Part shown: positions 9,791 to 19,518 of the stretch, one piece after another | Position numbering within the stretch: position 1 is the first letter of the stretch | Layout: each line of letters begins with the position of its first letter | From: Erythrobacter donghaensis | GTDB lineage: Bacteria > Pseudomonadota > Alphaproteobacteria > Sphingomonadales > Sphingomonadaceae | NCBI RefSeq assembly: GCF_001557325.1 | Contig: NZ_LSJS01000023.1 | Location: 1 to 21,218 of the forward strand | Direction: 5' to 3' | DNA length: 21,218 nucleotides | The notes under the pieces: model-generated | What the model was told of the DNA's origin: nothing | The model's database searches: none | The model's input: only the letters and a program-made list of their open reading frames with translations | Position numbers and translations under genes: made by a program

Positions 9791-10582
9791 CTATTCGATG
9801 CCTTCGCTGCCGTCGTCGAACCCGATGCGCTCCGCCGCCGCGCCCGACATGATGAAGCCGATGGGGCGCTCGGTCTCCTCCTGCAGGTGGGCGATGAGGC
9901 TGGCGGTGCGCGCGAGGAGCGAGATGCCCTTGAGCGCGGCGAGCGGGAAGCCGGCGTCGAGCATAACCGCGGGGATCGCGCCGTTGACGTTGATCGGCAG
10001 CGCGCGGCCGATGGCCTCGGGCAGCACCGCCTCGATGGTGCGCAGCATCGCGATGTGCTTGCCTTCCATCCCGTGCTCGGCGGCGAGCGCCAGCAGCCGG
10101 TGCGCGCGCGGATCGCCGCCCGAGTGCTGGGGGTGCCCGAAGCCGGGGATCGCCTGCTTCTCGGCGCGCAGGGCCTTGATCGCCGCGATCGCGGTGGCGG
10201 CGGGGTCCGCGCCTTCTGCATCGGCAACGACCTTCGCGTAGAACCGCCCCGCGACCTCAGCGCTCCCCAGCACCACGCTGCCGCAACCCAGCAGCCCCGC
10301 TGCGACCGCGCCGTGGAAGGCCTCGGGCGCGGCGGCATAGGTCATGCGGGTGGCGACCACGGAGGGTACCAGGCCATGCTCGGCGATTGCGCAAAGCACC
10401 GCATCGGCCAGCGCCTTCTGGGGGGCGGACGGCATGGTGCCCGTCACCAGCAGCCAGAAATAGGAGGTGAAGTCGACATGACCGATCACCTCGGAACACA
10501 GGTCCATGCCCCGCACCGTGATGCTGGTCGCATCCGAAGTGCAGATCGAGGTCACCGCGTTGTCCTGCTTGCCGATGCGCAT
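9791..10582 (-). CDS. Citryl-CoA lyase-like protein (citrate synthase fold)
   Basis: This 263-residue protein belongs to the short citrate-synthase-fold group that includes citryl-CoA lyase and the C-terminal part of ATP-citrate lyase. Recognisable blocks are FTSYFWLLVTGTMPS (38-52), AEHGLVPS (67-74), FHGAVAAGLLGCGSVVLGSA (89-108), GFGHPQHSGGDPRAHRLL (147-164) and LPINVNGAIPAVMLDAGFP (195-213). H69 and H150 fit the active-site histidines. The position corresponding to the catalytic Asp of citrate synthase and ATP-citrate lyase (NVD) reads N200, so ordinary citrate chemistry is doubtful. The likely role is cleavage or formation of a C-C bond in an acyl-CoA, fitting the divergent CoA-transferase. 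I chose ATG 10582 (MRIGKQD), with AAAAGG upstream; a longer frame runs through the operator. Exact substrate unknown. Confidence 0.85.
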   Translation of the reverse strand: MRIGKQDNAVTSICTSDATSITVRGMDLCSEVIGHVDFTSYFWLLVTGTMPSAPQKALADAVLCAIAEHGLVPSVVATRMTYAAAPEAFHGAVAAGLLGCGSVVLGSAEVAGRFYAKVVADAEGADPAATAIAAIKALRAEKQAIPGFGHPQHSGGDPRAHRLLALAAEHGMEGKHIAMLRTIEAVLPEAIGRALPINVNGAIPAVMLDAGFPLAALKGISLLARTASLIAHLQEETERPIGFIMSGAAAERIGFDDGSEGIE

Positions 10583-10595
10583 GGGTCCATGCCTT

Positions 10596-10627
10596 TTCGT
10601 TATTCGAAGTTGATTTCGGTATGCGAA
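10596..10627. promoter_or_regulatory. Tandem-palindrome operator, copy 1 (divergent promoter)
   Basis: Two 13-bp palindromes of form TTCG-N5-CGAA lie at 10596-10608 and 10615-10627, separated by GTTGAT. The same arrangement recurs at 14004-14035, with 24 of 32 bases identical. The differences fall almost only in the N5 loops, as expected for protein half-sites. It sits between the divergent citryl-CoA-lyase-like and CoA-transferase genes and just downstream of a good minus-strand promoter. The neighbouring IclR-family gene encodes the obvious candidate ligand; PcaR/PobR-type IclR regulators are known to bind TTCG-centred pseudo-palindromes. Confidence 0.8.
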
Positions 10628-10628
10628 G

Positions 10629-10657
10629 ATTATAGGGTCACGCAAGCATCAAGGCAA
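10629..10657 (-). promoter_or_regulatory. Sigma-70-type promoter for the citryl-CoA-lyase-like gene
   Basis: Read on the minus strand, TTGCCT (10657-10652) and a perfect TATAAT (10634-10629) are separated by 17 bases. Transcription would begin near 10622, inside the tandem operator, leaving about 40 bases of leader with AAAAGG before the ATG at 10582. A repressor bound to the operator would block initiation directly. For the opposite strand only a weak match exists: TTGATT at 10610-10615 within the operator spacer, followed by TATAGG or TAGGGT. Confidence 0.65.
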
Positions 10658-10675
10658 GCAGATGGGATTTGTAGG

Positions 10676-11836
10676 ATGACCGCTCGGCCCCTCGCAGGCG
10701 TCACTGTGCTCGAAATGGGCACCTTCATCACCGGCCCTGCCGCCGGGATGCTGCTCGCCGACATGGGCGCGGATGTCATCAAGGTGGAGCAGCCGGGGAC
10801 GGGCGATCCCTTTCGCAGCTTCAAGGGCGAACTCTACTCGCCCCACTTCCAGACCTACAACCGCAACAAGCGTTCAATCACGATCGACCCCAAGAAGGAA
10901 AGCGATCTTTTGGTGCTCGACCGGCTGGTCGAGGAGGCGGACGTGTTCATCCAGAATTTCCGCCCGGGCGTGGCGGGGCGGCTGAAGGTCGATGCCGAGC
11001 GCTTGCAGGCCATCAACCCGCGCCTCGTCTACGCCTCGATCTCGGGTTTCGGCAGCGAGGGGCCTGAGCGCGATCGCCCCGCCTTCGACACCGTCGCCCA
11101 GGCCGCGAGCGGATTCCTGCGGCTGCTGGTCAATCCCGAGCACCCGCGCGTCGTCGGCCCGGCGATCGCCGATGCCATGACCGGGTTCTACACCGCGCTG
11201 GGCATCCTCGCCGCACTCAATGAACGCCACACCACCGGCAGGGGCCGCGTGGTCGAGACCTCGATGTTCGAGGCGATGTGCCACTTCAACCTCGACGATT
11301 TCACCCACCTGCTCTCCGCCGACCAGGTGATGGGGCCCTATTCCCGCCCCCACGTCAGTCAGAGCTACGTTTTCCAGTGCGCGGACGGCAAGTGGCTTGC
11401 GCTTCACATGTCCTCGCCGCCGAAGTTCTGGGAGAACCTCGCCACCGCCGTCGGCCGGCCCGACATGCTGAGCCTGCCCGCCTTCGAAAGCCGCGAGGCG
11501 CGGATCGCGCATTACGAGGATGTGGTCGCCTTCCTCGCGCCGATCTTTGCCGGGCAGCCGCGCGATCACTGGACCGCCGAGCTGACCCGTCTCGAAGTGC
11601 CCAACTCGCCAGTCTATGACACCACCGAAGTCCTCGCGACCGAGCAAGCCAAGGTGCTGGGCATCGAAGTCACCGACCCGAACGGCCCCAAGGGCGAGTT
11701 CCGCACGATCCGTTTCCCCCTGTCCTTCGACGGCGCGCGGATGGACTCGGTCACCGCGCCGCCCCTATTGGGGGCAGACGATGCGGCGATCCGCCGCTCC
11801 ATCGAAAGGCCGGTGCATGGGATCCGCAGGGGCTGA
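10676..11836 (+). CDS. Class III (CaiB/BaiF, formyl-CoA transferase-type) CoA-transferase
   Basis: This 386-residue protein is a family III CoA-transferase, moving CoA between a donor thioester and a carboxylic acid. N-terminal signatures are LAGVTVLEMGTFITGPAAGM (6-25) and LADMGADVIKVEQPGTGDP (28-44); NRNKRSITIDPK (63-74) and FIQNFRPGVAGRL (91-103) follow. The catalytic aspartate is D166 in VGPAIADAMTGFYTALG. Length is usual for the family (380-410). The ATG at 10676 gives the conserved MTARPLAG start; the frame is open upstream across the operator without similarity. It is divergent from the citryl-CoA-lyase-like gene across the tandem operator, and its last 20 bases overlap the IclR gene. 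The pairing suggests activation of an acid to its CoA ester before C-C cleavage. The substrate is unknown. Confidence 0.93.
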   Translation: MTARPLAGVTVLEMGTFITGPAAGMLLADMGADVIKVEQPGTGDPFRSFKGELYSPHFQTYNRNKRSITIDPKKESDLLVLDRLVEEADVFIQNFRPGVAGRLKVDAERLQAINPRLVYASISGFGSEGPERDRPAFDTVAQAASGFLRLLVNPEHPRVVGPAIADAMTGFYTALGILAALNERHTTGRGRVVETSMFEAMCHFNLDDFTHLLSADQVMGPYSRPHVSQSYVFQCADGKWLALHMSSPPKFWENLATAVGRPDMLSLPAFESREARIAHYEDVVAFLAPIFAGQPRDHWTAELTRLEVPNSPVYDTTEVLATEQAKVLGIEVTDPNGPKGEFRTIRFPLSFDGARMDSVTAPPLLGADDAAIRRSIERPVHGIRRG

Positions 11837-12644
11837 AGCCGAAGACCGGGGGGCGGGGAAAGACCCCGAGTTCCTCTCGACGCTGGAACGCGGCCTGCGC
11901 GTCCTCAAGGCGTTCGACGAGGATCATCCCGAGATGACCCTCTCCGAGGTCGCCGCCAAGACCGGACTGCCCCCGGCGGTGGCGCGGCGCTGCCTGATCA
12001 CGCTGGTGGAGCTCGGCTATGTCGGCCAGCACGAGCGCAAGTTCCTGCTGCGCCCGGCGGTGCTGACGATCGGTTCGGCCTTCCTCGCCTCGATGCAGAT
12101 CGAGCAGGTGGTGCTGCCGCCCTTGCAGGCCCTGCGCGACCAGACCGGCGACAGCGCGAGCCTCGCCGTGCTGTCGGGCGCCGACATCCTCTACGTCGCC
12201 CATGTCTCGACCGACCGGCGGTTCCGCGTCGCGGCGGGGGTGGGGACGCGCTTCCCGTTCCATGCGACCTCGCTCGGCAAGGCGATCGCGGCGCACCTGC
12301 CCGAGGACGAGCGCGCGGCGCTGCTCGCCCGCGCGCCCTTCCAGCGCTTCACCGAGCGCACGGTCACCGACCACCCCGCGCTCGCCGACCGGCTCGCGCT
12401 GATCGCCGAGCGCGGCTACGATTCAGCGCTGGACGAGCTCGATTACGGGATCGTTTCGGTCGCAGTGCCGATTTTCGGACGCGATAAGCGGGTGATCGCG
12501 AGCATCAATTGCTCCACCTCCACCACCCGCATCTCGCAGGACGAGCTCGTCCGCACCCGCCTGCCCCTGCTGCGCCGCGCGGCGGGCGAGATCGAGGGAT
12601 CGCTGAAGCGCTGGCCCGCGCTCGAGGCGAGCCTGCGGCCCTGA
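11817..12644 (+). CDS. IclR-family transcriptional regulator (PcaR/PobR-like)
   Basis: The 275-residue protein has an N-terminal winged helix-turn-helix (about 20-85: FLSTLERGLRVLKAFD, then MTLSEVAAKTGLPPAVARRCLITLVELGYV) and a C-terminal IclR effector-binding domain (about 95-270), with RVAAGVGTRFPFHATSLGKAI and a late IASINCSTSTTRIS block. The helix-turn-helix resembles the PcaR/PcaU/PobR branch, which governs aromatic-acid catabolism in other bacteria. It starts inside the last 20 bases of the CoA-transferase gene, so it is translated from the same message and would be autoregulated if it acts on the operator at 10596-10627. The same operator before the TonB receptor suggests that it controls both units. 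Whether it activates or represses is not shown by the sequence. Confidence 0.92.
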   Translation: MGSAGAEAEDRGAGKDPEFLSTLERGLRVLKAFDEDHPEMTLSEVAAKTGLPPAVARRCLITLVELGYVGQHERKFLLRPAVLTIGSAFLASMQIEQVVLPPLQALRDQTGDSASLAVLSGADILYVAHVSTDRRFRVAAGVGTRFPFHATSLGKAIAAHLPEDERAALLARAPFQRFTERTVTDHPALADRLALIAERGYDSALDELDYGIVSVAVPIFGRDKRVIASINCSTSTTRISQDELVRTRLPLLRRAAGEIEGSLKRWPALEASLRP

Positions 12645-12782
12645 GGGGCGGGCAAAAGGTGACGTCCGCTCTGGCGGGCGCATAGAAAGACGCTGACATT
12701 CGCAGAGCGACCCCGTTGCTGCCATTTTCGATTGATGCTCATTACTCTAGCCAGAGCAAAGCTGGACGAGGTGGTCGGAGCA

Positions 12783-13595
12783 ATGAACTCTAATCGCGAG
12801 GAACTCTGCACTGCCCCAGCCTTGCCGGCAGAAATGAGGGAAGACCATCAAGGATACTCGTGGGCGCGCAGTGTGATCGGCCAGTCCGGCGGGTCGGTCT
12901 ATCGACTGCATGGCAAGCCCGGCGCTCCAGAGCTTTACTTGAAGCACGGTTCTGGCGCCGTGGCTGATGCGATCGTTGACGAGATGGTGAGACTACGCTG
13001 GCTGGCGAGTTACATTCCCGTCCCGACGGTGAGAAAATTCATCTATGCCAAAGAAGAGGCCTGGCTGCTCATGACGGCTTTGCCGGGCGAGACGGCTTAT
13101 CAGGTATTGGAGGCAAGGCCGGCAGACAGGGTGGCGGTGGTCGATGCGCTGGCAGGCTTCCTTCGCCGGGTTCATGCGATCCCGGTCAGCGAATGTCCGT
13201 TCAACAACGATCACACCTACCGGCTCGGCGTCGCGCGGCGACGAATCGATAACGGACTGGTCGACGAGGACGATTTCGATGCGGAACGAGAAGGCTGGAC
13301 AGCTCAGCAGGTGTGGCAATCACTGATGGAGCGGTTGCCCGTTACTCCCGACCCGGTGGTTACGCACGGAGACTTCTCGCTGGATAATCTGGTGATTGGC
13401 GACGGCGTTGTGACCGGCTGCATCGATGTCGGGCGAGCTGGAACAGGAAACCGCTATCAAGACCTCGCGATCCTTTGGAACTGCCTCGGAGAATTCGGGA
13501 GCACGTTGCAGGACAGGCTGCTGATGACTTACGGCGTGACCGAGGTGGACAAAAACAGCCTGCAATTTCACTTGATGCTGGACGAGTTGTTCTGA
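12783..13595 (+). CDS. Aminoglycoside 3'-phosphotransferase, APH(3') family
   Basis: The 270-residue protein resembles APH(3')-I enzymes, which phosphorylate the 3'-hydroxyl of kanamycin-type aminoglycosides with ATP. Motifs in order are GQSGGSVYRLHGKP near the N-terminus (nucleotide loop), ELYLKHGSG with the ATP-binding lysine, the Brenner motif VTHGDFSLDNLVI with catalytic Asp, the metal-binding GCIDVGRAGTGNRYQDLAI, and the closing LQFHLMLDELF, nearly identical to the APH(3')-Ia end. Length is within one residue of APH(3')-Ia, and I recall roughly 60% similarity, so it is a distinct variant. I chose ATG 12783 (GAGGTGG upstream); an ATG at 12735 is also in frame. Base composition is lower than in neighbours (34 of 60 G+C in 12961-13020, against 46 of 60 in 12121-12180), suggesting acquisition. 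Actual resistance is not shown. Confidence 0.93.
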   Translation: MNSNREELCTAPALPAEMREDHQGYSWARSVIGQSGGSVYRLHGKPGAPELYLKHGSGAVADAIVDEMVRLRWLASYIPVPTVRKFIYAKEEAWLLMTALPGETAYQVLEARPADRVAVVDALAGFLRRVHAIPVSECPFNNDHTYRLGVARRRIDNGLVDEDDFDAEREGWTAQQVWQSLMERLPVTPDPVVTHGDFSLDNLVIGDGVVTGCIDVGRAGTGNRYQDLAILWNCLGEFGSTLQDRLLMTYGVTEVDKNSLQFHLMLDELF

Positions 13596-14003
13596 CGGCG
13601 GCGGAAGGCTGCCACGAGACGTGACGCAAGCTGACCTTCAACTTCCCACCCGATCCCGGCTGACAGCCTTGCCCGAGGGCGGCCCTGAAATCCGCCTGCC
13701 GGCTTCCACGGCAAGTCCGGGGCGACGACTGGCTTGAACGCGGCCACGCGGCCCGGCCACCCTCGCGTCCCGTAGGCAAGCAGGTCGCCAAGCCGGGGGA
13801 TCGGCTCCAGAGCCCCGAACGGCGCGTGTGCCTGTCGAATACCCGCCTATGGAACGACAATTACCCCGATACAGCCCGCACACAGCCGCAGGCCATTTCC
13901 CGTGCCGCGGCGCCCCGCGAAAATCCTACCCGGGCCAAACCCGATCCCTGCTTTGCCTGCCTCGCGCCAAGCTGGCGTTGCCGCAACGCAACATTGCACA
14001 AGT
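13596..14003. other. Gene-free stretch downstream of the aminoglycoside phosphotransferase gene
   Basis: About 400 bases hold no convincing gene. Short open frames exist on both strands, but none has a ribosome-binding site plus recognisable protein sequence. I saw no terminal inverted repeats, tRNA fold or target-site duplication. It may be residue of the event that brought in the phosphotransferase gene. The last part leads into the TonB-receptor promoter. Confidence 0.5.
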
Positions 14004-14035
14004 TTCGCATATCGAAGTTGACTTCGCATTGCGAA
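14004..14035. promoter_or_regulatory. Tandem-palindrome operator, copy 2 (TonB-receptor promoter)
   Basis: TTCG-N5-CGAA palindromes at 14004-14016 and 14023-14035 are separated by GTTGAC, exactly the spacing and spacer of the copy at 10596-10627. The spacer together with the first base of the next palindrome gives TTGACT (14018-14023), a good -35 element. ATAACC or TAACCA at 14040-14046 lies 16-17 bases downstream and could be the -10. The regulator would therefore straddle the -35 box. The receptor ATG follows 73 bases after the operator. Confidence 0.8.
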
Positions 14036-14108
14036 TTTCATAACCAGCCGAACAGAGAGGGGTCGCCGATAAGAGCGGCGCGTTCGCGCGCAGACAGGGG
14101 AGAGACAT

Positions 14109-16343
14109 ATGAAGTTTTCGGGCCCGGGCCGCAGCGCCAAGGATCGCATCGGCCGCGCCGCTGCCAGCACCACCGCCATCGCTGTCGCCGCGATTGCCGC
14201 AACGCCGCTCGCTGCGCAGGACACCGCTGCCGAGCCGACCGCCGAAGCCGAGGGCGAAATCGTCGTCACCTCGCTGCGCCGTACCGAGACGCTGCAGGAC
14301 ACCCCCGCCGCGGTCACCGCCTTCGATTCGCAGGCGATCCAGAACGCCGGGATCGAACGCCCCGCCGACTTCATCGGTCTCACCCCCAACGTCACGCTGG
14401 TCGAGACCCAGAACGCGGGCAATGCCTTCGTCATCATCCGCGGGATCACCCAGAACCGCAATTCCGAGCCTTCGGTCGCCGTGATCGTCGACGGGGTGCA
14501 GCAGGTGAACCCCGCGCAGTTCAATCAGGATCTGTTCGATATCGAGCAGATCGAAGTGCTCAAGGGTCCGCAGGGCGGGCTCTATGGCCGCAACGCCATC
14601 GGCGGGGCGATCATCATCAACACCAAGAAGCCGACCGATGAATTCGCGGGCAACTTCACGGCGGGGATCGACAACGGCTTCGGCTATTTCCTGCGCGGCG
14701 GCGTCAGCGGCCCGCTGGCCGAGAACGTCAAGTTCCGCATCGCCGGGTCGTGGTACGACACCGACGGCTTCATCAACAACGCCTTCCTCGACGAGAAGGC
14801 CGATCCGGTCGAGGACTTCAGCTTGCGCGGCAACCTCCTGATCGAGGCGACCGACAGGCTGACCTTCGACCTGCGCGCCAGCCTCAACCAGCTGCGCACC
14901 CAGGGGCTCTATTACAACATCGTGGGTGACGTGAACACGATCGCCCCGGTGCTGGTCAACAACCCCGGGCAGAACGATCGCGACATCTACAACGTCGCGC
15001 TCAGGATCGAATATGCGGGCGACAACGCCGTGCTGACCTCGGTCTCGTCCTACGACACGCTCAAGGAAATCCTCACCGGCGACGCCTTCGACTTCCGGCC
15101 AATCCCCGACAGCTTCTTCTTCAACCTGTTCGAGCAGATCTTCGGGCCGGGCAACGGCTTCGATTTGAACCAGAGCCAGTATCTCAACGTCAAGGCGTTC
15201 AGCCAGGAAGTGCGCCTCGCCTCGCCCGAGGATGGCCGCAAGTTCAACTGGATGGTCGGCGGCTACCTGATCGACACCACCCGCTTCATCTCGACCGGCA
15301 ACATGATCGACACCGGCAACGGCGTCTTCCCGGTGTTCCGCTCGCCTTCGACCAATCCGCTCAACCCGCAGTTCTCCTATCTGGCTGACGGGCAGGAGAA
15401 CTTCGCCTGGGCGCTGTTCGCCAATGCGGGCTACGAGTTCTCGCCCGAATTCCGGGTCGATGCTTCCTTGCGCTATGACCGCGACCGCCGCCGCCAGACC
15501 ACGCTGACGCCGCAGAACTTCCTGCCCAACGTCCCCGGCGTGCCGCAGGCGCAGAGCGGCGAGGTGCGCACCGTCTCCTTCGACGACTGGCAGCCCAAGA
15601 TCACGCTCACCTGGGAGCCGACCCCCGACCTGACGCTCTACGGCGGCTATTCGCGCGGCTTCCGCTCGGGCGGGTTCAACCAGACCGGCGTGGGCGCGGA
15701 ATCGGTCAATGCCGGGATCGTCGGCGTGGGCGACATCTTCCAGGCCGAAACCGCCGACACCTTCGAGATCGGCGCCAAGGCGCAGGTCGGCCCGGTGCGC
15801 CTCGGCGCGGCGGCCTACACCACCAAGTCGGAAAACTCCTACTTCTTCGTCTTCCTCGCCCAGTCCTCGACCCAGAATCTCGGCAACATCCCCGAGACCC
15901 GGATCAACGGCTTCGAGCTGGAAGCGACCGCCGAGATCGTCCCCAATCTCGATGTCAACGCCGCGCTCGGCTTCACCGACAGCGAGATCGAGGCCTTCCC
16001 CGATCCGAGCGTGATCGGCAACGAGGCGCCGCAGATCTCGCGCTACACGCTGAACCTCGGCGCGCAGTATGCCGGGCCGGTCAGCGACAGCGTCGATGCG
16101 CTGCTCAGGGTCGATTATCGCCGCACGGGGCGCACCTGGTGGGAGCCGTTCAACACCACCTCGCGCGATCCGGTCGACATCGTCGATGCCCGCGCCGGGT
16201 TCACGCTGGCGAACGGCGTCTCGGTCACGGCCTTCGCGCAGAACCTGTTCGACGAGATCTACAACGCCGAATTCTCCCCCGGCGGCTTCGTGTTCCGCGC
16301 CCGGCCGCGGCGCTACGGGGTCGAGGTGGGCTACAAGTTCTGA
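14109..16343 (+). CDS. TonB-dependent outer-membrane receptor
   Basis: The 744-residue protein has a signal peptide (about 1-37, ending PLAAQD), a TonB-box-like EIVVTSLRR (50-58), a plug domain with IEQIEVLKGPQGGLYGRNAI and GGAIIINTKKP, and a long beta-barrel ending in an aromatic residue (VEVGYKF), as usual for outer-membrane proteins. It imports a ligand across the outer membrane using TonB-ExbBD energy. In sphingomonads such receptors often head catabolic operons rather than siderophore loci, and no iron genes are near. AGGGGAGAG precedes the ATG at 14109. It is the first gene of a tight five-gene run to 19518, and its promoter carries the tandem palindrome also found before the CoA-transferase. 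The substrate is unknown, presumably that of the pathway. Confidence 0.95.
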   Translation: MKFSGPGRSAKDRIGRAAASTTAIAVAAIAATPLAAQDTAAEPTAEAEGEIVVTSLRRTETLQDTPAAVTAFDSQAIQNAGIERPADFIGLTPNVTLVETQNAGNAFVIIRGITQNRNSEPSVAVIVDGVQQVNPAQFNQDLFDIEQIEVLKGPQGGLYGRNAIGGAIIINTKKPTDEFAGNFTAGIDNGFGYFLRGGVSGPLAENVKFRIAGSWYDTDGFINNAFLDEKADPVEDFSLRGNLLIEATDRLTFDLRASLNQLRTQGLYYNIVGDVNTIAPVLVNNPGQNDRDIYNVALRIEYAGDNAVLTSVSSYDTLKEILTGDAFDFRPIPDSFFFNLFEQIFGPGNGFDLNQSQYLNVKAFSQEVRLASPEDGRKFNWMVGGYLIDTTRFISTGNMIDTGNGVFPVFRSPSTNPLNPQFSYLADGQENFAWALFANAGYEFSPEFRVDASLRYDRDRRRQTTLTPQNFLPNVPGVPQAQSGEVRTVSFDDWQPKITLTWEPTPDLTLYGGYSRGFRSGGFNQTGVGAESVNAGIVGVGDIFQAETADTFEIGAKAQVGPVRLGAAAYTTKSENSYFFVFLAQSSTQNLGNIPETRINGFELEATAEIVPNLDVNAALGFTDSEIEAFPDPSVIGNEAPQISRYTLNLGAQYAGPVSDSVDALLRVDYRRTGRTWWEPFNTTSRDPVDIVDARAGFTLANGVSVTAFAQNLFDEIYNAEFSPGGFVFRARPRRYGVEVGYKF

Positions 16344-16358
16344 CGAAAGGCGAGACGC

Positions 16359-16961
16359 ATGACCAAGGTGCTGGTGCTCTACTATTCGAGCTATGGCCAT
16401 ATCGAGGCGATGGCCGCAGCGGTTGCCGAAGGCGCCGCAAGCGTCCCCGGCACCGAGGTCGTCGTGAAACGTGTCCCAGAGTTGGTGCCCGATGAGGTCG
16501 CCAAGGGTGCCGGGATGAAGACGGACCAGCAGGCTCCGATTGCGACCCCGGATGAACTGGCTGGTTATGACGCCATCATCTTCGGCACCCCCACCCGCTT
16601 CGGCAACATGGCCGCGCAGATGAGGAACTTCCTCGATCAGACCGGGGGGCTGTGGTTCCAGAACAAGCTGGTCGGCAAGGTCGGGAGCGTGTTCGTCTCG
16701 ACCGCCAGCCAGCACGGCGGGCAGGAGACCACCATCACCTCGTTCCACACCACGCTGCTGCATCACGGCATGGTGATCGTCGGCCTGCCCTACACCTTTG
16801 CGGGCAACAGCGAGATGGGCGAGATCAGCGGCGGCACCCCCTATGGCGCGAGCACGCTGGCGGGCAATGACGGCAGCCGCATGCCGAGCGACAACGAGCT
16901 TGCCGGGGCGCGTTTCCAGGGGGCACACGTCGCGCGGATCGCGGCGAAGCTGGCCGCGTGA
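16359..16961 (+). CDS. wrbA: WrbA-type NAD(P)H:quinone oxidoreductase (type IV)
   Basis: This 200-residue flavodoxin-fold protein reduces quinones by two electrons with NAD(P)H, using FMN, in the cytoplasm. Signatures are the FMN phosphate loop YYSSYGHI (8-15), [20 protein letters not shown] (about 76-95), [14 protein letters not shown] (about 112-125) and the C-terminal [14 protein letters not shown]. Length equals that of typical WrbA (about 198-200). It starts 15 bases after the receptor stop with AAAGGCGAG upstream, so it is cotranscribed. In this setting it may reduce a quinone formed during catabolism of an aromatic compound, rather than act only in general redox defence. The symbol follows the family; the cluster-specific role is inference. 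Confidence 0.95.
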
Positions 16962-16981
16962 ACAGACAGGGAGAGAGCACG

Positions 16982-17527
16982 ATGACGAAGATCCTGGCGA
17001 ACCGCCTCCACCACACCGCCTATGTCACCAAGGACCTCGAGGCGACCCGCGCGTTCTATGAGGACGTGCTCGGCTTCCCGCTGATGGCGACCTATTGCGA
17101 GAAGGACGAGCTGTTCGGCAAGGAGCGCACCTATTGCCACGTGTTCTTCGAACTCGCCGACGGCTCCGCGCTCGCCTTCTTCCAGTTCGCCGATCCAGAG
17201 GACCAGGCCGAATTCGGGCCCGACATCCCCTCGAGCCCCTTCATCCACATCGCGCTCCACGTCGATGCGGACGGGCAGGCCGAACTCGCCCGCCGCATCG
17301 CCGCCGCCGGGATCACCGAGCCGCAGACCTATGTGCTCGAGCACGGCTATTGCCGCTCGCTCTATGTCACCGATCCCAACGGCATGATCCTCGAATTCAC
17401 CCATGACGACGAGCGCGCCGCGCCGCTCGATGCCGAGCGCCGTGCCTCGGCCCACGCCGAGCTCAAGCGCTGGCTGGCGGGCGATCACCACAACAACAAC
17501 CCGTTCCGCGCCGAAGAAGCGGCCTGA
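16982..17527 (+). CDS. VOC-superfamily (glyoxalase/extradiol dioxygenase-like) metalloprotein
   Basis: This 181-residue protein has two beta-alpha-beta-beta-beta modules typical of the vicinal-oxygen-chelate superfamily. The first begins LHHTAYVTKDLEATRAFYEDVLGF and the second FIHIALHVDADGQAELARRI, ending YVTDPNGMILEFTHD. Likely metal ligands are H11, H89 and E138, the 2-His-1-Glu set shared by type I extradiol dioxygenases and some isomerases. It is shorter than classical two-domain extradiol enzymes (about 290 residues or more) and has a charged, His/Asn-rich tail. I chose ATG 16982, with AGGGAGAG upstream and 20 bases after wrbA; an ATG eight codons earlier overlaps wrbA and lacks family similarity. 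Between a quinone reductase and a hydrolase, ring cleavage or an isomerisation step is plausible but unproven. Confidence 0.9.
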   Translation: MTKILANRLHHTAYVTKDLEATRAFYEDVLGFPLMATYCEKDELFGKERTYCHVFFELADGSALAFFQFADPEDQAEFGPDIPSSPFIHIALHVDADGQAELARRIAAAGITEPQTYVLEHGYCRSLYVTDPNGMILEFTHDDERAAPLDAERRASAHAELKRWLAGDHHNNNPFRAEEAA

Positions 17528-17554
17528 GCGTTCGGGCGGGGGTGCGTCAGCGAA

Positions 17555-18394
17555 ATGCCGACTGCGCGCACCCCTGATTCCGCCGGCGCATGGTATCGCG
17601 ATGTCGCCGTGGAGGGCGGCGCGCTGCCGGTGTGCCTGGCCGGGGAGGAGGATCGTCCGGCGCTGATCCTGCTTCACGGCTGGACGCTCGATCACCGCAT
17701 GTGGGCGCCGCAGATCGCAGGGCTGGCGGGCGAGCATTTCCTGGTGATGCCAGACCGGCGCGGCTGCGGGCGGGCCACGGCCCCGGCGGACCTCCTGCGC
17801 GAGGCCGAGGACGTGATCGTCATCGCCGACAGCCTCGGGCTCGATCGCTTCGCGCTGCTCGGCCTCTCGCGCGGGGCGACGGTCGCGCTCGACGTGGCGT
17901 GCAAGTTCGCCTCGAGGCTGACCGGGCTGATCGTGTCCGGCGCGCCGCTGCCCGCGCTGGTGCCGCGCGAGGAGGTGATCGACCTCGAGCATTTCCGGGC
18001 GCTGGCGGCGGCGGGCGAGCTTGCGCGTCTGCGCGGCGAGTGGTCGCGGCATCCCCTGATGCAGACCCGCTCGCCCGAGGCTGCCGCGCTGGTGGCGATG
18101 ATCCTTGCCGATTATGACGGCCGCGATCTGCTCGCTCCCGCCAATGCACCGGACGTCCCGCGCGAGGCGCTGGCGATGCTGGCGATGCCCGTGCTGGCGC
18201 TGACCGGCGCGCACGACACCGCATGGCGCAAGGCCTGCGCCGAGGCACTCGGGCAGGTCGCCCCGCGCGCGATGCACGCGCTTGTGCCGCAGGCCGGGCA
18301 CATCGCCAACGCCGACAACCCGGCCCGCTTCAACGCGCTGGTCGCCGCATTCCTGCGCAATCTTGCCGCCCCTCACACAAGGCCACACCCATGA
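17555..18394 (+). CDS. Alpha/beta-hydrolase fold enzyme
   Basis: This 279-residue protein has the full catalytic set of the alpha/beta hydrolase fold: oxyanion HGW (41-43) in LILLHGWTLDHRMW, nucleophile S105 in GLSRGA, acid D221 in TGAHDTAW and H249 in QAGHIANADNP. The closest general type is the MhpC/PcaD-like group, which acts on ring-cleavage products, enol-lactones and similar esters, but substrate specificity cannot be read. It follows the VOC gene by 27 bases and overlaps the next gene by four (ATGA), so it is in the same operon and probably translationally coupled. No signal peptide is seen, so it acts in the cytoplasm. Confidence 0.92.
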   Translation: MPTARTPDSAGAWYRDVAVEGGALPVCLAGEEDRPALILLHGWTLDHRMWAPQIAGLAGEHFLVMPDRRGCGRATAPADLLREAEDVIVIADSLGLDRFALLGLSRGATVALDVACKFASRLTGLIVSGAPLPALVPREEVIDLEHFRALAAAGELARLRGEWSRHPLMQTRSPEAAALVAMILADYDGRDLLAPANAPDVPREALAMLAMPVLALTGAHDTAWRKACAEALGQVAPRAMHALVPQAGHIANADNPARFNALVAAFLRNLAAPHTRPHP

Positions 18395-19518
18395 CCGAAA
18401 AGCGCTTCCTGACCACCCACGTCGGCAGCCTGCCGCGCCCCGAGGCGCTGCTCGATCTTGTGTTCGCGCGCGAGGGCGGGGAGGCTGTGTCCGAGGCCGA
18501 TTTCGACGCTGCGGTCGAGGATGCCACGGCTTACGTCATCCGCCGCCAGATCGAGGCGGGCGTCGCCATCGTCAACGACGGCGAGCAGTCCAAGCCCTCC
18601 TACGCCACCTATATCAAGCACCGCCTGTCGGGCTTCGGCGGCGAGGCGGGGCAGTATGAATTCGCCGACCTCGAGGCCTTCCCCGGCGCCAAGGCGCAGG
18701 TGTTCGGCAACAAGGGCCGCGCCAAGCGCTCCGCCCCGGCCTGTACCGCGCCCATCGAGGTGATCGACATGGAAGCCCCGCGGATCGACGCCGAGCGGCT
18801 CAAGCGCCTCGCGGGCGGCCACGCCACCTTCATGTCGGCGGCCTCACCCGGCGTCACCGCGCTGTTCTTCCCCAACCAGTTTTACGCCAGCGACGAGGAG
18901 TATGTCTTCGCGCTCGCCGAGGGGCTGCGCCACGAATACGAGACGATCGCGGCGGCCGGGATCACGCTGCAGGTCGACTGCCCCGACCTCGCCATGGGCC
19001 GCCACGTGCAGTTCACCCACCTGTCCACGCAGGAATTCCGCAAGCGCATCGGCATGAACATCGCCGCGCTCAACCACGCGGTCGCGAACATCCCCGCCGA
19101 GCAGCTGCGCATGCACCTGTGCTGGGGCAACTATCCCGGCCCGCACCATTGCGACGTCGCGCTCGATGAAATCGCCGACATCGTCTGGAGCGCGAAGCCG
19201 CAGACCGTGCTGCTGGAGGGCGCGAACCCACGCCACGCGCACGAATTCGCTTTCTTCGAGAAGCACCCCCTGCCCGAAGGCAAGATCCTGTGCCCCGGCA
19301 TGGTCGAGCCGCAGAGCCCCTATATCGAGCACCCCGAACTGATCGCCCAGCGCATCGGCCGCTATGCCGATCTGCTCGGGGCCGACCGCGTGATGGCCGG
19401 GGTCGATTGCGGCTTTTCGGTTCACGCGGGCAGCAATGCGCTCGATCCGGAAATCGTCTGGGCCAAGCTCGCCGCGCTTGCCGAGGGGGCGGCGATCGCG
19501 AGCGAGAAGTATTTCTGA
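18391..19518 (+). CDS. MetE C-terminal-domain-like (cobalamin-independent methionine synthase II family) zinc methyl/alkyl transferase
   Basis: The 375-residue protein corresponds to the catalytic C-terminal half of MetE only, without the N-terminal half of the 750-residue enzyme. The start MTEKRFLTTHVGSLPRPE is typical of the stand-alone family, which includes archaeal-type methionine synthases and epoxyalkane:coenzyme M transferase. Zinc ligands seem complete: H242 and C244 in MHLCWGNYPG, E276 in LLEGANPR and C340 in GVDCGFSVHAG. Such enzymes activate a thiol(ate) on zinc for alkyl transfer. It is the last gene of the receptor-led run and overlaps the hydrolase stop by four bases. Its place in a catabolic operon argues against plain methionine synthesis; removal of a methyl group from, or thiol addition to, an intermediate is my inference. 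The natural substrate is unknown. Confidence 0.9.
   Translation: MTEKRFLTTHVGSLPRPEALLDLVFAREGGEAVSEADFDAAVEDATAYVIRRQIEAGVAIVNDGEQSKPSYATYIKHRLSGFGGEAGQYEFADLEAFPGAKAQVFGNKGRAKRSAPACTAPIEVIDMEAPRIDAERLKRLAGGHATFMSAASPGVTALFFPNQFYASDEEYVFALAEGLRHEYETIAAAGITLQVDCPDLAMGRHVQFTHLSTQEFRKRIGMNIAALNHAVANIPAEQLRMHLCWGNYPGPHHCDVALDEIADIVWSAKPQTVLLEGANPRHAHEFAFFEKHPLPEGKILCPGMVEPQSPYIEHPELIAQRIGRYADLLGADRVMAGVDCGFSVHAGSNALDPEIVWAKLAALAEGAAIASEKYF

Follow-up and report, generated by a model that had tools for sequence, protein, structure and literature searches.

Whether a sequence repeated in front of two gene groups is a true operator, and which protein would read it, is the question raised by a locus of Erythrobacter donghaensis (RefSeq assembly GCF_001557325.1, contig NZ_LSJS01000023.1, positions 1 to 21,218 of the forward strand). 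This whole stretch of 21,218 nucleotides is called the window here. A first-pass annotation, made from the letters alone, had described a 32-bp element of two palindromes around a short spacer, TTCGN5CGAAGTTGAYTTCGN5CGAA, and had named the IclR gene starting at 11817 as encoding its likely binder. Our analysis revealed that the element is real, specific, and widely conserved. The IclR protein encoded at 11817-12644 very probably binds the 32-bp elements, a prediction from sequence that is supported by the co-occurrence of site and gene, by their placement, and by conservation in relatives. The two copies and the genes next to them are as follows.

10596..10627, plus strand: operator copy 1, an exact match, with palindromes at 10596-10608 and 10615-10627 whose centres are 19 nt apart
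14004..14035, plus strand: operator copy 2, an exact match, with palindromes at 14004-14016 and 14023-14035 whose centres are 19 nt apart
9791..10582, minus strand: citryl-CoA lyase-like gene (NF004868, 309.1 bits, cut-off 193)
10676..11836, plus strand: class III CoA-transferase gene (PF02515, 349.5 bits)
11817..12644, plus strand: gene of the IclR-family regulator, the proposed binder (PF09339 and PF01614 above cut-off; co-occurs with the site)
14109..16343, plus strand: TonB-dependent receptor gene, the first behind copy 2 (PF00593, PF07715)

In the window, the 32-bp pattern was matched exactly at these two positions only, and it appeared in none of 100 dinucleotide-preserving shuffles of the window. 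The first-pass annotation had placed both copies correctly, copy 1 between the divergent CoA-transferase and citryl-CoA lyase-like genes and copy 2 before the TonB receptor. Its word "identical" is right for the arms and the spacing, but not for every letter, as the copies agree at 24 of 32 bases. Exact 13-bp palindromes of the form TTCGN5CGAA were found four times in the window, always inside the two copies. When one mismatch was allowed, single palindromes occurred at the background level (12 found vs 11.4 expected), indicating that the signal is the exact tandem arrangement.

For the genome-wide tests, relatives were used. We sampled 296 genomes evenly across the order to which Erythrobacter oryzae belongs and accepted IclR matches at an E value of 1e-50 or better. 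The protein was matched in 26 genomes, in 25 of them at 48% identity or more, and these 25 were taken as orthologues; the match in G227 (39% identity) was set aside as a paralogue. The earlier annotation had proposed checking whether the site tracks this orthologue, and it does: sites with at most one mismatch were present in 24 of the 296 genomes, all 24 among the 25 with the orthologue, and in none of the 271 others. The hypergeometric probability of this overlap was 2e-34, a value that overstates independence because the genomes are related. The reversed-pattern control gave 0 matches in the 296 genomes, and each of the 50 sites listed shared a contig with the IclR gene, at a distance of no more than 6 kb. 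When up to three mismatches were tolerated, a match was present in 120 of the 296 genomes; among the matches listed, most looked like chance.

Conservation was then counted at orthologous genes. A complete divergent lyase/transferase region was available in 67 loci, counting the window; for each region the best tandem at 19 nt was taken, and it had 0 arm mismatches in 58 regions, 1 in 6, 3 in 2, and 4 in 1. At 22 of these regions the site lay outside the pattern used for the collection scan below, and 19 of the 22 had at most one arm mismatch. Upstream of receptor genes, 74 of 76 regions had no arm mismatch; the two exceptions were L114 (7 mismatches, its site lying just outside the counted interval) and L009 (6 mismatches, the receptor match being only 30% identical). 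Among 1150 shuffled 450-bp stretches, the best arm mismatch was 3 in 2, 4 in 15, and at least 5 in 1133. The flanks differed among loci while the arms persisted, and the sites of VOC genes in L052, L060, and L084 had intact arms around other spacers. Thus, conservation before orthologous genes, which the first-pass annotation had expected of a true operator, was found in 64 of 67 regions with at most one arm mismatch and before 74 of 76 receptor genes with none.

A collection of one genome per species, covering 84,980 species, was scanned with the pattern TTCGN5CGAANNTGANTTCGN5CGAA, and at least 117 stretches matched. Most of the 117 listed came from Sphingomonadales; the others were further Alphaproteobacteria, nine gammaproteobacterial records, and a single Burkholderia. 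Of these loci, 116 contained one or more cluster genes (identity 40% or above) and 93 the IclR gene; many listed loci without the IclR gene had a short fetched stretch or a site near its edge. The sole exception was the Burkholderia locus (L108), where the site immediately precedes pcaI and follows a 4-hydroxybenzoate monooxygenase gene. The idea that this match was a false positive was dropped because of that position. The same genome has a three-mismatch relative of the site between pcaF and a PcaR-type gene (TIGR02431, 360.3 bits). A side observation concerns eight gammaproteobacterial loci (L009, L027, L035, L046, L062, L077, L082, and L114), in whose stretches no CoA-transferase homologue was matched and the lyase, the IclR gene, and the operator were present; another CoA-activating enzyme may serve there.

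To see the site within whole genomes, 20 cluster-bearing genomes were scanned with the spacer left free. Of the 44 sites listed with at most one arm mismatch, 43 fell in the cluster, and the remaining one preceded a MetE-like gene that is relocated. This indicates that the pattern is not randomly placed; random placement would have spoken against the first-pass annotation. No dispersed regulon was found in these 20 genomes. With up to two mismatches there were 57 matches vs 33 for the reversed control; one of the 13 two-mismatch matches (in G013) was near the cluster, and the 12 elsewhere were chance-like. Extra sites preceded VOC genes in four loci (L004, L052, L060, and L084) and MetE-like genes in L052 and L113, the L113 site being ~34 kb away from the closest site in the Sphingosinicella terrae cluster, which suggests that the site follows cluster genes into separate units. 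Apart from such separated genes, the predicted regulon is local. An extra site in L021 and G019 was ruled out as a hydrolase promoter because of its position 3' of the hydrolase gene.

The proposed binder belongs to the IclR family by both of its domains (PF09339, 63.1 bits, cut-off 22; PF01614, 132.3 bits, cut-off 24). In its helix-turn-helix (HTH), residues A54, R57, R58, C59, L60, and T62 were invariant in 88 of 88 distinct orthologues. A homologous regulator was present in 56 plasmid records, and the comparison covers 5 of them, two without a usable gene table. On plasmids of Sinorhizobium and Agrobacterium, regulators 42-44% identical to that of the window are encoded alongside citryl-CoA lyase genes and tandem arms at 19 nt. 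The Sinorhizobium plasmid has two tandem sites with one mismatch each, the Agrobacterium plasmid one with one mismatch and one with three, and the spacers of all four are without TTGA; after shuffling, a locus had on average 0.21 pairs of any of these kinds. Arms and spacing are therefore kept here without TTGA, and two constraints can be separated, the arms and spacing going with the regulator and TTGA with the promoter. Two side observations on plasmids are worth recording. A Niveispirillum cyanobacteriorum plasmid (L217, 8889-8939) has three successive palindromes at 19-nt steps before a receptor gene, the first with one mismatch. On a plasmid of Sinorhizobium sp. B11 (L216, 8928-14337), the genes behind the IclR homologue are annotated as an oxidoreductase, a citryl-CoA lyase, a CoA transferase, and an extradiol ring-cleavage dioxygenase.

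How the element is placed relative to the promoters bears on what a bound protein would do. The first-pass annotation had equated the spacer with the -35 (TTGACT) of the receptor promoter; we found the spacer at the -35 position in both window copies, in the following putative promoters.

10610..10638, plus strand: putative promoter towards the CoA-transferase gene and iclR, with -35 TTGATT at 10610-10615, TA at 10633-10634, and a weak -10 TAGGGT at 10633-10638
14018..14046, plus strand: putative receptor promoter, with -35 TTGACT at 14018-14023, TA at 14041-14042, and a weak -10 TAACCA
10629..10657, minus strand: putative divergent promoter reading towards the citryl-CoA lyase gene, TTGCCT-17-TATAAT, 10/12 consensus matches

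The -10 of the lyase promoter overlaps the -10 region of the opposite CoA-transferase promoter, and the lyase transcript would be expected to start within copy 1. Columns 16-18 of the element were fixed by the scan pattern, whereas columns 15 and 19 were free to vary; column 15 was T in 135 of 136 sites, and column 19 was C or T in 132 of 136. The centre columns of the loops were nearly all A or T. In a wider set of 83 receptor sites the -35 read TTGACT in 77, TTGATT in 5, and TTGAGT in 1, and in 68 CoA-transferase sites it read TTGATT in 46, TTGTTT in 7, TTGCCT in 4, TTGTCT in 4, TTGACT in 2, and otherwise in five. TA followed the -35 by 17 bp in 56 and by 16 bp in 19 of the 83 receptor sites, and by 17 bp in 63 of the 68 CoA-transferase sites. 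On the minus strand, 53 of 66 sites had a TATAAT-like hexamer (at least 4/6) at a single, shared distance from the edge of the operator. Considering that the -10 elements of both directions overlap at copy 1, the TA there may serve either direction; at the receptor sites, 77 of 83 of which have no divergent partner gene in the gene table, the TA register is shown independently. Set against the sigma70 scheme of -35 and -10 hexamers about 17 bp apart, the -35 and TA are in register and the minus-strand lyase promoter is good, and the plus-strand -10 boxes of the window are weak. The promoter consensus of S. meliloti is given as CTTGAC-N17-CTATAT (PMC2573895).

Taken as a whole, the best explanation, and in our view a likely one, is a tandem IclR operator built into the promoters, with repression until a metabolite releases the protein. 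Two dimers or one tetramer of the IclR protein would bind the two 13-bp palindromes, with their centres 19 nt apart. The spacer and the first T of the second palindrome would form the -35 box, and the second palindrome would occupy the larger part of the stretch up to the -10. Protein bound at copy 2 would shut off the promoter that serves the receptor gene and those following it. Protein bound at copy 1 would shut off the promoter of the CoA-transferase gene and iclR, resulting in negative autoregulation, which is also suggested by the way the start of iclR overlaps the end of the CoA-transferase gene. It would also block the lyase promoter, which is divergent, overlaps the one just named, and would have its start within the operator. 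A pathway metabolite would then release the IclR protein from all three promoters.

Several points weigh against this explanation. Many of the loci and genomes are closely related, and the counts are not independent. One genome (G260) has the orthologue yet only two-mismatch sites at both operators (C2:298615-298646 and 300793-300824; L208), both with G for T as the opening base of the second palindrome and with a changed -35; its regulator is unchanged in the helix of the HTH. The receptor gene of G260 matches in two pieces, with ~137 residues lacking, and the hydrolase gene likewise in two pieces, which may reflect decay of the cluster or an error of assembly. In Cupriavidus necator, the lyase gene has a site before it, near a 49% homologue, with three mismatches; Cupriavidus metallidurans gave no clear site around its 48% homologue. 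A stricter consensus scan of the window found neither plus-strand promoter, both of which have weak -10 boxes. The PcaR/PcaU/PobR model TIGR02431 is the best NCBIfam match of the regulator at 252.9 bits, below the cut-off of 284.75. Judged by this score, the regulator is classed as PcaR-like, not as a member of TIGR02431. The kinship with PcaR and PobR suggested in the first pass thus stood in so far as this is the best model and the Burkholderia outlier precedes pcaI, but fell short of the family cut-off.

It is this kinship that makes activation a live rival. The IclR protein might bind the sites as a ligand-dependent activator or dual regulator, like PcaR, an option that we consider rather unlikely. 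PcaR itself represses or activates depending on the position of its box (PMC12455658), which tells against plain repression. The weak -10 boxes of the window would also suit an activator. A 1999 study by Guo and Houghton, going by its title, reportedly has PcaR activating and repressing through the -35 and -10. However, reading one way the operator spans the -35 and the greater part of the spacer, reading the other way it spans the expected lyase start, and receptor promoters have a nearly consensus -35 (TTGACT at 77 of 83 sites); this layout favors occlusion by a repressor, and the net effect is probably repression. A different doubt concerns the spacer, which hardly varies among receptor sites and might be read by the IclR protein itself instead of being a -35 box. 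We regard this as improbable: TA stands ~17 bp farther on in most sites, CoA-transferase sites also have TTGTTT, TTGCCT, and TTGTCT, and the VOC sites with other spacers, like the rhizobial sites without TTGA, keep their arms.

The identity of the binder and the reality of the repeat can be questioned too. Binding by the IclR protein is predicted here from sequence, and the IclR gene could merely be linked to sites that another regulator, encoded elsewhere, binds. This seems very improbable, as the arms are the published IclR core at the published tandem spacing (PMC8222616), none of the 271 genomes without the orthologue had a site at up to one mismatch, and rhizobial clusters with other sets of genes still pair tandem arms with an IclR homologue. 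That the repeat is chance or neutrally inherited sequence is scarcely credible. Many loci do come from related species, but the flanks vary while the arms persist, and a chance origin was rejected by the window shuffles, the reversed-pattern control, and the shuffled 450-bp stretches (best arm mismatch at least 4 in 1148 of 1150).

The other genes of the locus are listed below.

12783-13595, between iclR and the receptor operator: APH(3')-I family aminoglycoside phosphotransferase gene (NF033059, 446.9 bits, cut-off 400)
16359..19518, plus strand: remainder of the likely receptor operon (same strand, close spacing, and families; order kept in many loci)
16359-16961, plus strand: WrbA gene
16982-17527, plus strand: VOC protein gene
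17555-18394, plus strand: alpha/beta hydrolase gene
18391-19518, plus strand: MetE-like gene

The receptor, WrbA, VOC, alpha/beta hydrolase, and MetE-like genes are probably co-transcribed. The APH(3')-I gene had no match in the 117 listed scan loci and therefore looks like a private insertion in the window. The gap between iclR and the receptor operator, about 1360 nt in the window, was also unusually long in L008, L037, L048, and L117 (about 1347, 1149, 811, and 4903 nt), so this stretch may be a recurrent insertion point.

Structure matches of four proteins gave folds or families, and none named a substrate. In the clusters of homologous regulators in Sinorhizobium and C. necator, the citryl-CoA lyase stands beside an annotated dioxygenase and a CoA transferase or AMP-binding protein, and these annotations are a clue to an aromatic or quinone pathway. 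As a tentative joint reading, which we put forward as possible and not as the expected outcome, the operator would mark an uncharacterised aromatic or quinone catabolic pathway that begins with uptake through the TonB receptor and ends in CoA activation and citryl-CoA lyase-type cleavage. Regulator and operator would travel together across Alpha- and Gammaproteobacteria, one composite element would control divergent overlapping promoters, and the protein might switch between repression and activation. The motif links the TonB receptor to the citryl-CoA lyase and CoA-transferase genes as one uptake-and-catabolism unit. It is also specific enough to find the pathway in unannotated genomes, since at most one mismatch picks 24 of 25 orthologue genomes and none of 271 others. 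The fixed register of IclR palindromes around the -35 offers a natural series for studying how PcaR-like proteins repress or activate.

Among known systems, the closest is IclR group 1 of Suvorova and Gelfand (2021, PMC8222616), with the core TYCRYW3RYGRA and tandem centres 18-22 nt apart in 94 groups. The arms TTCG-N-WWW-N-CGAA of the window agree with this core, although the outer loop columns do not keep Y and R, and the 19 nt of both copies falls within the published spacing. As in the three-box sites of that paper, neighbouring half-sites here point in alternate directions, with four boxes in place of three. Its main text does not mention TonB, citrate, or CoA-transferase and names no sphingomonad regulon of this kind; nor did we find, in the text covered, the interleaving with a -35 that is proposed here. 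Among the papers listed by searches aimed at the cluster, its substrate, or its regulation, no title or abstract described it; the regulog may be listed in the supplements of PMC8222616. The PcaR motif of Pseudomonas, WWWRKTCGATWATCGSAYRRW, has TCG/CG-type arms like those here, whereas the sites of PcaU, PobR, and HmgR have three boxes (PMC8222616) against four half-sites here. PcaR/PcaU/PobR is the nearest NCBIfam model, but the targets here are not pca genes. PheR of Sphingobium sp. SHPJ-2 (PMC13273656) is likewise a sphingomonad IclR regulator with a TonB link: it represses an aromatic catabolic operon, protects -21 to +23, and affects TonB functions. Unlike the system here, it has the core GCAACG and different genes, and the word tandem is absent from its text. 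The novelty lies in the particular regulon and its uncharacterised pathway, and the architecture of the switch is of a known kind.

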